From assembly GCA_019637585.1 (NCBI GenBank), contig JAHBVL010000007.1, positions 1 to 42,286 of the forward strand: a DNA stretch of 42,286 nucleotides, given 5' to 3'. Each line of letters begins with the position of its first letter. Position 1 is the first letter of the stretch. Source of the stretch: Thermomicrobiales bacterium. Lineage in GTDB: Bacteria; Chloroflexota; Chloroflexia; Thermomicrobiales; UBA6265. The notes under the pieces are model-generated. The model saw only the letters and a program-made list of their open reading frames with translations, was not told the origin of the DNA and did not search any database. Shown piece after piece: positions 1,177-32,640 of the stretch. A program made the position numbers and the translations under genes.

Positions 1177-1279
1177 CGCCAGGGTACGCCCGCGAGCCAA
1201 CCGGGGTACCATTGAGCGGTTGCGGAGCGTGCTGCGGCGGAGCCGTGGTATCAAAGAACAGATCGAAGGACTCGCACTG

Positions 1280-4200
1280 TTGAAACTGACTCGATCAGGA
1301 ACAGGACGACACTCGCGACTCTTTGCGGTCGCTGTTGTCCTGATGCTGCTGATGGGGGCGTCGCCCTTCGGGTCGATCACGCCGCAAGAGACCGCAGCTG
1401 CGCAGAGCGTCACTCCCCTGGCCGGGGATGTGATCATCCTCCTGAACAACCCAGGAATCGACCCAGAGGTTTTCGCCGCCGGATTCGGCGTCGATCCCGT
1501 CTTCACCTACAACAGCGCCGTTATCGGGTTTTCCGCCACACTCACTGAGGAAGCGGCCCGGCGCCTGGCGCAGTCGTCGGTCGTGCGAGGCATCTATCCA
1601 AACGCTCCGGTCTACGCGTCGGCGCAGGTTCTTCCCGCCGGCATCAACCGCGTGAACGCGGATCTCCATCCCGTCGCGTCGATCGACAACATCGACAACC
1701 CTGTCGCCGCATCGGTGGCGGTGCTGGACAGCGGTGTCACCCCGCAGGCCGATTTGAATGTGTCTGGGGTAGGCAAGGACTGCTATTCGCCGGATGTGTC
1801 GTCAAATGACTTCTTCGGTCATGGATCGCACGTAGCCGGCTCGATTGCGGCGAGGGACAACACCATCGGCGTGGTCGGCATCGCTCCCGGCGCCACCATC
1901 TATTCGGTGCGTGTGCTGGGTCCGACCGGGGGTGGGACGGTCGCCGGATTGATCTGCGGGCTGGACTGGGTTGCTGCCAACTCCAGTCTGGTCGATGTGG
2001 TGAACATGAGCATCACGACCGGGGCGTTGTCGGCGGCGGCATGCGGAACGAGCGGCGCCCACGCCCTGCATATCGCCATTTGCTCGGTTGTGAACACGCA
2101 CCAGATCCCCGTCGTCGTAGCCGCGGGCAACAGCGGCGTCCCGATTGCGGATGGATCGCTGGCAAGTTATCCGGAAGTCATCACGGTGTCGGCGTTTGCC
2201 GATTTCGACGGCAAACCGGGGGCCCTCGCGGCGACACCCTCTTACGATTGCGCAGCTGGCGAGTTCGACGACGTCTTCTATGAGTCGACGAACTTCGGAC
2301 CGGAAGTCGATATCACGGCTCCGGGCGTTTGCGTGGTTTCCACGAATCAGAACGGTGTGCTCGTCTTGCGGACCGGCACCAGCATGGCCACCGCTCACGT
2401 CACGGGCGCGCTGGCTCTCTACTACGCCATGAATCCGGGGGCGTCGGTCGCAGCGGCGCGCAGCTGGCTTTTCGGGTCGGCATCGGTTTCCCAGAGCGCC
2501 GCGGGCGTGACAGGCGATCCGGACGGATTTGCGGAACCTGTGCTGATGCTCGCTCCCGAAGCGAGCACCCCGACAGCAACCGCGACCATGACGGCGATCG
2601 CGACAGCCACGCACACGGCAACCTCCACGTCAACCAACACGCCGATACCGCCAACAGCGACCCACACGGCGACCAACACGCCAGTGCCGCCGACAGCCAC
2701 GCACACGGCGACCAACACACCGGTGCCACCAACGGCAACTCACACGGCGACCAACACGCCAGTGCCGCCGACAGCGACACACACCGCGACCAACACGCCA
2801 GTGCCGCCAACGGCGACACACACCGCGACCAATACACCAGTACCGCCAACTGCGACCCACACGGCGACCAATACACCGGTACCGCCAACCGCAACCCACA
2901 CGGCGACCAACACACCGGTGCCGCCAACGGCGACTCACACCGCGACCAACACGCCAGTACCGCCAACTGCGACCCACACCGCAACGAATACAGCGGCACC
3001 ACCAACCGCGACGCACACGGCGACCAACACGGCGGTGCCACCGACGGCCACGCACACGGCAACGAACACGTCCGTGCCACCAACCGCGACCCACACGGCA
3101 ACCAATACGGCGGTGCCACCGACAGCGACGCACACGGCGACCAACACGGCGGTGCCACCGACGGCCACGCACACGGCAACGAACACGGCTGTGCCACCAA
3201 CCGCGACGCATACGGCAACGAACACAGCGGTGCCGCCCACGGCCACGCATACGAACACGGCGGTGCCACCAACCGCGACCCACACGGCGACCAATACAGC
3301 AGTGCCGCCAACCGCAACGCATACCGCTACTGCCACCAGAACACCAACGGCAACGCGAACGCCCACGATCACACCGACGCCGCTCGGCGGTCTGCAGGCG
3401 GGTGATCTGGTCAGAACGACGGCCGCGCTGAACGTGCGGAGCGCTCCGGGCACCGGCAACCCATCGGTCGCCGTATTGCCGAATGGCGCGCAAGGCGTGC
3501 TTCTGAGCAATGGTGTCCAGAGCGGCTCGTATATCTGGTATCAGATCAGCGTCAGTGGTTATCCGGTGGGTTGGGTAGCAGGAACCTACCTGCAGAAGAT
3601 CGGCGTCGCCCCGCCGACAGCGACCGCAACCATCACCCGCACGCCAACGGTGACTCTGACCCCAACGCAGACCCGTACACCAGGCGCTGCCACCAACACG
3701 CCAACGATTCCGCCGGGTGGTTTCGCTCCGGGTGACGTCGTGCGGACAACTGCGGCTCTGACGGTGCGCTCTGCGCCCGGAACAGGGAGTCCATCGATCT
3801 CGGTGCTGCCCAACAACACGCAGGCAACGGTGCAGAGCTTTGGTGTGATCAATGGCTCGTACACCTGGTATCAGGTGAGTGCGTCCGGCTATCCAACCGG
3901 TTGGGTTGCGGGTACGTGGCTGACGAAGGTTGCAGCGCCCACGGCCACCGCCACGCGAACTCCGACGAGAACCGCCACGCCGAACACGGGATGGGCTGCG
4001 GGTACCCAGGTGCGGACGACCACAGCCGTCAACATGCGGACGAACCCCGGCACAGGAAATACCGTGATTGCCGTTGTCAGCACTGGCACGATATGTACAG
4101 TCGTCGCGGGTCCCTCGAATGCGTCGGGGTACACCTGGTATCGGTTGAACTGTCCTGGATTCGGTACCGGCTGGCTGGTGCGGAACTATCTGGTCGTCGT

Positions 4201-4768
4201 GACCTCTGCGGCGTCTGAAGCGGAGGAGGTCGGCGAGTCCGCGACTGAGACACCCACGATCGCCACCACACCAGCAGAAGCCCCGCCAGCTCCGACCAGT
4301 ACGGTCGACACACTCCAGTCTGTGACCGTGGCCGAGTCAACGGAGACCCCGGTCGCTCTATCGGTGCCCATAGAGCCGACGCCATATCCCGTTGTGCGGG
4401 TGCAGCGAACCGAGGGTTCGTCGAACGGGGCTGTGCTTGTCGACGACGATGTGACGACCGTCTGGAAAACGAACGGCGCGGAGTTTCCCCAGATCGCTTC
4501 TTTTGCGCTCGATCTCGACAAGGTCTTGCCGGTTGGCGAGTTGCGCTGGCTGCCAGACGAGGGTGGTGTCGAAGGGCGACTGCTGATTCAGATCTCCTCC
4601 GATGGCCAGAACTGGGTCGATCTCGATCTCGAACTGGCGACGCAGGATGTGGAGGGATGGACTGTCCTCCCCGTTGATGCTTCCGCCCGGTACATCCGCT
4701 TCGTCTTCCTCAACGAAGCCCAAACCGCCCAGCTCGGCGGGATCGCCGAACTGGAAGTGTGGGAGTAG
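1280..4768 (+). CDS. Secreted subtilisin-like serine protease with Thr/Pro linker, SH3b x3 and discoidin-like domain
   Basis: An S8-family endopeptidase acting outside the membrane. The TTG at 1280 is chosen because GAAGGA lies 9 nt upstream and it puts a Sec signal peptide (KLTRS..., then [14 protein letters not shown]) at the N-terminus; TTG 1220 would add 20 residues. Order of parts: signal peptide; inhibitor-I9-like propeptide (~45-115); catalytic domain with Asp150 (VLDSGV), His181 (HGSHVAG), oxyanion Asn284 (AAGNSG) and Ser368 (GTSMA); a tandem 13-residue Thr-rich linker (459-677); three SH3b domains (~704-773, 814-883, 904-971) joined by Thr/Pro spacers; and a C-terminal F5/8-type-C-like galactose-binding domain (~1038-1162). 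The catalytic set is complete, so activity is expected. SH3b and discoidin-like domains commonly bind cell wall or glycans, suggesting a surface-attached or substrate-targeted protease. No operon partner is evident. Confidence 0.9.
2654..3310 (+). repeat. In-frame 39-bp tandem repeat encoding a 13-residue Thr/Pro linker
   Basis: Sixteen full 39-bp units plus one 33-bp unit (which lost two codons) encode [13 protein letters not shown] variants. The first eight units carry PVPP and the later ones AVPP, AAPP or SVPP, so the array falls into two blocks. Synonymous third positions vary between units, so protein sequence is kept while DNA drifts. The long antisense and out-of-frame ORFs across this stretch are artefacts of the periodic composition. 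Confidence 0.95.
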
Positions 4769-24875: not shown

Positions 24876-26102
24876 CTACTGCACGATCTTCGGCAGGGTG
24901 AACGAGGTCACCAACCCGCCGGTCAGCGGCTGAGCGGTCCAGACCCGGCCCTGGTTGAGCTCGATCAATCGCCTGGCCAGCACCAACCCGACGGAAAATG
25001 GCGCCGTTCGCGCACCATACGGCGAACCACTGGACGCCACATTCACCTGCGCTTCGATACCCAGGTCGAGTGTTTCGATCAGGACCGAGTCGCCCGATCG
25101 ACCTTCCCGCATGGCGCTGTCGATCAACTGCTGGAGGATCGTCGCCAGCTGGTCCGGATCGGCCAGTACCGGCGCAATCGCGAAATCGACCCGCGGCAAC
25201 AACGTGACGCCAAGCATGGCCGATTGAGGATGGAGTTTCTCGCACGCGGCGAGAACCGCGCCGCTCAGCACGACAGGCTGCAGCTCGACCGCGACCCGCC
25301 CCGCGTCGATGTCGGCCAGAACCTCCAACTCGCGAATCAGGGCTTCCTGCCGGTCCAGATCTCGCTGCAAGGCGATCCCCAGACGCTTGAGGGAGGAAGG
25401 ATCGACGTCCGCCGATCGCAGCAGGCTGTCGGTGTTGCGCTGCAACGCGGAGACCGGTTCCTGCAGCTCTGAGATCACCGCTGCCACCAGATAGCGTTGC
25501 GATTCCTCCAGCGTTCGTTGCCGTTGATAGGCGAACTGGAGCCGTCCCGCCATCGTGTTCATGGCCATACCGAGATCGGCGAATTCCTTCTCGCCGGTAT
25601 CGGGCATCCGCGCCGACAAATCCCCTTCGGCCAGCCGGCGCGACACCCCGCCGATGTCGGTCAACGGACCAGTGAACCAGCCGCTAACGAATGCAGAATA
25701 GATCGACGCCACAGCCACGGCATATGCCAGCACCAGACCGAGACGCTCGAAGTCGTGCGACGAGTCGAAGAGGAGCGCGGCGCTGATGCCGACGGTGAGC
25801 ACGACAACCAGCACGCCGATGATGTGGGCGGTGATCAACCGGGCGGAAATCCTGCGACCCTGTTGATGTCCCAGCGTCCAGAGCAGTATTCCGCCCGTCG
25901 CGAGCGACGCTCCGCCCGCCAGCGCCAGCACGCCCAGCAGTTCCGGCAAATCGCTCGTGGGAATACTCAATCCGACGACCGCGACGACAAGCGCCGCCGC
26001 CAACGCAACCCCCGCCGCCAGCGCTGCCAGCACCAGCCGTTTCCAGGTGGGTGCGCTCCGAACGAGATCGGAATATGTGGGCGGTGCGTAGGAGTCAGAC
26101 AT
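24876..26102 (-). CDS. Histidine-kinase-like membrane protein lacking catalytic residues (pseudokinase)
   Basis: 408 residues. Four hydrophobic helices (~24-46, 55-75, 88-110, 122-143) lead into a HAMP domain (~140-195, GPLTDIGGVSRRLAEGDLSAR), a DHp-like helix and an HATPase-like domain. Expected catalytic features are absent. The H-box SHELRTP reads ISELQEP, with Ser211 where His is phosphorylated. The N-box Asn is Ser329 (QQLIDSAM). No DxGxG G1 box is found, while the G2-like VGLVLARRLIELNQGRV remains. It therefore probably cannot autophosphorylate and may act as a sensor scaffold or partner of another kinase. No response regulator is adjacent. No Shine-Dalgarno precedes the ATG. Confidence 0.8.
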   Translation of the reverse strand: MSDSYAPPTYSDLVRSAPTWKRLVLAALAAGVALAAALVVAVVGLSIPTSDLPELLGVLALAGGASLATGGILLWTLGHQQGRRISARLITAHIIGVLVVVLTVGISAALLFDSSHDFERLGLVLAYAVAVASIYSAFVSGWFTGPLTDIGGVSRRLAEGDLSARMPDTGEKEFADLGMAMNTMAGRLQFAYQRQRTLEESQRYLVAAVISELQEPVSALQRNTDSLLRSADVDPSSLKRLGIALQRDLDRQEALIRELEVLADIDAGRVAVELQPVVLSGAVLAACEKLHPQSAMLGVTLLPRVDFAIAPVLADPDQLATILQQLIDSAMREGRSGDSVLIETLDLGIEAQVNVASSGSPYGARTAPFSVGLVLARRLIELNQGRVWTAQPLTGGLVTSFTLPKIVQ

Positions 26103-26314: not shown

Positions 26315-26695
26315 TCACCAGGGCTCATCCCCCGGCACCTGGCGTCCTCCGAAACGACCCCGCTCCCCGGCGTCCTGTTCCGCGATGGAGACGAGCCAGG
26401 TGAGGAATCCATCGTTGGTCATCGCCTGGTCGTGAAAGTGAAAGCGGCCGATTTCGTAGGCGGTTTGCTGTCCCGGCGCGAATGATTCGCCTTCGCCCGC
26501 CAGGAAAGCCAGACGGTCGAGTCTCGGGTCGTCGAGCGGGAGCTGTTCGACCCAGTCGGCAAAAGCAAGGAGCGCATCGGCGCTCTGCAGATTCCGCGTG
26601 TCGCGCAAGTCGTCGTTGTACCGGGCGCGACGCCAGGTGCTGATTGCGCGTACATACGCAGCCATCGACGTTCTCAGGTCATTCACAGTTGGCAC
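26315..26695 (-). CDS. Hypothetical protein, 126 residues
   Basis: Not recognised. A soluble, largely helical protein; AYVRAISTWRRARYNDDLRDTRNLQ and DALLAFADWVEQLPLDDPRL suggest two amphipathic helices, then a Gly/Arg-rich tail. There is no signal peptide or membrane helix. The GTG start has AGGAG about 8 nt upstream. Divergent from the 26917 gene. Confidence 0.6.
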   Translation of the reverse strand: MPTVNDLRTSMAAYVRAISTWRRARYNDDLRDTRNLQSADALLAFADWVEQLPLDDPRLDRLAFLAGEGESFAPGQQTAYEIGRFHFHDQAMTNDGFLTWLVSIAEQDAGERGRFGGRQVPGDEPW

Positions 26696-32407: not shown

Positions 32408-32640
32408 CTGGCAGCGGGCGGCCGGCAGCGGGCAGCACGTAGTTCGGGCACCTGTGGCCCGATGGGTGATCTGCCCGCCGGTGCGTCCACCCTTGGGTGT
32501 CGCGGATCGGCAGCGACGTCGGGCCAGAGGTGCCCGAACTACGATCTAACTGCCGACTGCCGACTGCCGACTGCCGACTGCCGACTGCCGACTGCCGACT
32601 GCCAGCTGCCAGCTGCCAGCTGCCGACCGCCTGCCGCCCG
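32406..32640. repeat. Second heptanucleotide-repeat island around a 106-bp hairpin
   Basis: Arms 32438-32462 and 32519-32543 pair over 25 nt with one mismatch, closing on a centre with CACCC-TT-GGGTG. Outside the right arm, 32549-32625 holds eleven tandem 7-mers (seven ACTGCCG, then ACTGCCA, GCTGCCA twice, GCTGCCG), decaying into 32640. Outside the left arm, 32406-32437 has the inverse family (CGGGCGG, CCGGCAG, CGGGCAG). No gene is credible here. Confidence 0.85.

Follow-up and report, generated by a model that had tools for sequence, protein, structure and literature searches.

The gene at positions 24876..26102 (minus strand) of the window, by which we mean the whole 42,286-nt stretch of Thermomicrobiales DNA analysed, encodes a 408-residue protein built like a membrane sensor histidine kinase that has lost its phospho-acceptor histidine and its ATP site, and this dead state is common to two genera at one syntenic place. 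Judged by alignment and modelling, the protein is a pseudo-histidine kinase, having the histidine kinase fold but not the catalytic residues, and sequence comparison shows that the inactive state is conserved across lineages, two in number. We lean towards the view that the protein is ancient, has been maintained and signals by conformation, probably associating with or scaffolding another sensor kinase or regulator with no phosphotransfer. Natural bacterial pseudo-histidine kinases that have been characterised are, to our knowledge, few.

The open frame is supported by full-length homology to sensor kinases with four transmembrane helices (TM) followed by HAMP, DHp and CA domains. AlphaFold2 secondary structure and the alignment place the four helices at residues 19-143 (25674..26048; this and all other features of the gene are on the minus strand), and the SSHD motif seen in intact relatives is preserved in the loop between TM3 and TM4. 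The HAMP domain (residues 138-189; 25536..25691) is a Pfam match above the cut-off (PF00672, E 8.4e-11). Alignment and model then predict a DHp-like helical hairpin without His (residues 190-268; 25299..25535) and a GHKL/CA-like domain without N box, G1 box or ATP lid (residues 269-408; 24879..25298). Pfam scores for these last two parts fall below the gathering cut-offs (HisKA, 14.4 vs 26.9; HATPase_c, 18.9 bits vs 26.4). No PAS domain was matched by Pfam and the protein has no HPt domain. NCBIfam and PDB sequence searches nevertheless place it among sensor kinases, with DivL as the best PDB sequence match. The AlphaFold2 model, built on a 24-sequence alignment, has a mean pLDDT of 84.9 and still predicts the four transmembrane helices, the helices of HAMP and DHp, and a GHKL core modelled with confidence; the CA blocks reach a pLDDT of 86-97, but residues 361-370 only 57. 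Foldseek matches of the model are histidine kinases, DivL being among the top ones. An earlier note on this DNA, made from the letters alone, had held that the membrane helices, the HAMP domain and the kinase fold remain, and the Pfam HAMP match and the model agree.

The catalytic motifs were compared by aligning the window kinase to 28 intact relatives. The phospho-acceptor column, which is His in 28 of 28, holds Ser211 (codon at 25470..25472), and the N-box column, Asn in all intact relatives, holds Ser329 (25116..25118); both substitutions are as the earlier note had read them. The G1 glycine box that it reported missing is reduced to a remnant at residues 357-361 (25020..25034), where DxGxG is replaced by SSGSP, or a similar register, with one Gly kept and the Asp and second Gly lost. 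The ATP lid of the intact relatives (FxRFYRGExSRSR) is deleted, and the G2 box GLGL is degraded to SVGL. The only His residues of the protein are at positions 79, 93, 116 and 291; none is within the DHp helices, which rules out an alternative acceptor His. The protein thus falls short of an active sensor histidine kinase in its acceptor His, in its N, G1 and G2 boxes and lid, and in having a cognate regulator (see below). We considered an assembly artefact but rejected it, since the frame aligns on either side of the missing motifs and an orthologue from a separate assembly is equally dead.

That orthologue belongs to another genus. Within the window's family, strong homologues were found only in genomes G009 (two copies) and G002 (one), and the G002 locus is syntenic with the window's, with matching gene order and orientation throughout. 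Identities between the two loci are 76% for pyruvate kinase, 68-70% for an AI-2E-type permease, 64% for a FAD-dependent oxidoreductase, 58% for a 126-residue protein, 51% for a carboxypeptidase-like gene and 30% for the kinase; aldo/keto-reductase-like and amidohydrolase-like genes are also shared (these two and the carboxypeptidase-like gene were named by eye). The G002 kinase reads AIAADAQLP at the H box and LVSYALSETP at the N box, lacks a G1 box and has a remodelled lid. Loss of the boxes is therefore common to both, as expected of a protein that the note had called conserved but dead; the particular residues are not, Ser211 being replaced by Ala and Ser329 by Tyr. The G002 contig was recovered again, as L083 (Thermomicrobiales bacterium ACE_NR_CHLO10), by a separate scan that used the 126-residue neighbour as query and yielded no further dead orthologue; a scan of genome contigs with the window kinase alone as query gave no match. 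The known dead orthologues are thus two, both from metagenome-assembled genomes. In two genomes of a third genus (L085 and L088) the 126-residue gene and pyruvate kinase are adjacent and the kinase is absent between them; in its place, on the opposite strand, is a different gene that reads, by eye, like an M24 peptidase.

More distant relatives are intact. Catalytic motifs are intact in some 35 class- and phylum-wide homologues of matching architecture, at least 17 of which have an OmpR-type response regulator in their locus. The closest comparison is with the two G009 copies (C64 and C103), which share the 4TM-HAMP-HisKA-HATPase_c architecture and align end to end with the window kinase at 34-36% identity. 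Both keep the H, N, G1, lid and G2 elements and adjoin an OmpR-type regulator, all of which the window kinase lacks. When the class and phylum were scanned for other dead members, the best-scoring homologues that were read proved intact, with two reservations: L082 has a C-terminal part unreadable in frame, and L178 was not matched by the N-box pattern used. Taken alone, these homologues would suggest a single decaying copy, the outcome that the note had named as its own refutation. The dead syntenic orthologue counters this: it is the distant homologues that are intact and the positional orthologue that is dead.

Were the two proteins inactivated once or twice? In the maximum-likelihood tree, which carries a long-branch warning, they are joined (support 93/94) and have the G009 pair as neighbour (95/93), and in leave-one-out trees either dead protein alone groups with G009. 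Because two long branches meet, the union of the dead pair rests partly on synteny. Seven columns with almost no variation among 22 intact kinases hold an identical new residue in both dead proteins (111 L, 214 Q, 226 S, 230 S, 258 E, 260 E and 333 E). These shared residues, together with synteny, favour one ancestral, already derived protein behind both. The last steps of inactivation may have been separate in the two lineages, the acceptor position being Ser in one and Ala in the other.

The note's remark that no response regulator lies nearby can be extended. The window's 114.5-kb contig has no match to PF00072 (response regulator), nor any HATPase match besides the window kinase itself. 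There are six OmpR-type regulators in the window's genome, each with a kinase beside it by position, and ten in G002; none of the six or of the ten joins the clade of 17 cognate regulators recovered from intact loci. This makes it likely that the cognate regulator was lost in both lineages, the assemblies being 96.6% (window genome) and 90% (G002) complete, so that its absence from G002 could be an assembly gap.

Another feature of the locus is the 126-residue gene (26315..26695, minus strand), which lies upstream of the dead kinase in both genomes and is a possible operon partner. The protein is of unknown family, with no Pfam match and no PDB fold match, and so offers no clue to its function. 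Of the order's 61 genomes, 32 have a member of its family, whose C-terminus, FGG...GDxPW, is conserved.

Is the gene decaying, or is it kept? A kinase made useless by loss of its regulator and now on its way out would account for the loss of all catalytic boxes along with the cognate regulator, and for very fast evolution: the branches of the dead kinases are 1.8 and 2.7 long vs 0.26-0.36 for the G009 kinases, about 5-10 times longer, and the dead pair is about 30% identical vs about 45-69% for sensor kinases that are reciprocal best matches between these two genomes. Both genes, however, are full-length, stop-free frames whose codon-position composition is that expected of working genes and, in the window gene (GC3 0.78), matches that of its neighbours. 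That two genera with only about 30% identity in this protein should both keep such frames is very unlikely under a neutral simulation (substitutions only), in which at most 1 in 1000 frames stayed free of stops at 0.3 or more substitutions per site. The shared derived residues moreover imply a long history since divergence from intact kinases, and within the dead pair the CA domain (32% identity) is no less conserved than the TM (27%) and DHp (29%) regions, which argues against its being a useless tail. We accordingly consider decay improbable, and read the branch lengths, frames and simulation as pointing to relaxed catalytic constraint with continuing selection for a protein, although the low identity of the pair makes strongly relaxed constraint across much of the protein possible.

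A retained protein could still have an enzymatic or nucleotide-sensing function with unorthodox residues. The confidently modelled GHKL fold is in keeping with this, as is the weak binding of a nucleotide analogue that persists in DivL (PMC4211667), but the protein has lost the N-box Asn and, from G1, the Asp and second Gly, the lid is deleted, the DHp helices have no His, and the orthologue lost the identical elements by a different route, so that we hold continued activity of this kind to be very improbable. Somewhat less doubtful, yet still rather unlikely, is a stand-alone membrane protein with no kinase link, in which the HAMP/DHp/CA fold serves the membrane part or binds a target outside two-component signalling such as the 126-residue protein. 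No response regulator or histidine kinase lies nearby, and the constant neighbour is the 126-residue gene, about 19 nt upstream in G002 if a downstream ATG is used. In the window, however, 212 nt and a dispersed repeat separate the two genes, and the 126-residue gene is widespread without the kinase, which makes a private partnership uncertain.

The best inference, by analogy with DivL, is a phosphorylation-independent role in hetero-association or as a scaffold, in line with the note's proposal of a regulatory partner or a relay independent of phosphorylation. The ancestor would have been a sensor kinase with four transmembrane helices, HAMP, DHp and CA domains, whose partner was an OmpR-type response regulator; in the common ancestor of the two Thermomicrobiales genera, the copy beside the pyruvate kinase gene would have lost its cognate regulator, acceptor His and ATP site, and have stayed under selection as a membrane protein. 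It would presumably still dimerise through HAMP/DHp and pass the membrane signal by conformation to a phosphorylation-independent output. Its most likely action, with no phosphotransfer, would be to associate with or scaffold another sensor kinase or a regulator. The first candidates for partners are the genome's intact sensor kinases and the adjacent 126-residue protein. A more specific proposal, which we put forward only tentatively, is that a naturally occurring membrane pseudokinase whose ATP site is fully eroded became, in one Thermomicrobiales lineage, a phosphorylation-independent subunit of a complex with another sensor kinase (or with the 126-residue protein).

Known systems offer partial parallels. 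DivL of Caulobacter needs no kinase activity to act on the CckA pathway; it has Tyr at the His site and PAS domains, and keeps the N, G1, F and G2 boxes (PMC4211667). The window protein resembles it in replacing the acceptor His while keeping the DHp-CA fold, and differs in having Ser at that site, four transmembrane helices and HAMP instead of PAS; against DivL, which keeps most ATP-site motifs, the erosion of the whole site is notable. In Corynebacterium glutamicum, an evolved ChrS pseudokinase promotes signalling through the paralogue HrrS (PMC9491836). That protein, ChrS-Ala245fs, is likewise a membrane sensor kinase, and its signalling is non-catalytic, as that of the window protein would be, but it is a laboratory-evolved frameshift that keeps its His and its regulator ChrA (PMC9491836). 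RcsD of Salmonella is also a membrane protein with a degenerate kinase domain; it is a phosphorelay member with an HPt domain (PMC3762810), of which the window protein has none. An intact relative with its regulator and two syntenic dead copies, all in the same family, give a clean before-and-after comparison for the conversion of a two-component sensor into a protein without enzymatic function, although it overturns nothing known.

The window also contains several repeats. The intergenic segment 26103-26314 has imperfect 47-nt inverted arms made of heptamer-like units (CATAGTT, GATGGTG); with 67 partial matches genome-wide it belongs to a dispersed repeat family, and it is absent from the corresponding position in G002. 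Another intergenic repeat with a 7-nt unit, at 32549-32631, is a tandem array of about 12 copies of ACTGCCG. At 1220-4768 a large, secreted-looking, subtilase-like protein is encoded (domain names by eye), in which about 18 copies of a 39-nt repeat, each encoding 13 residues, are followed by SH3-like segments.
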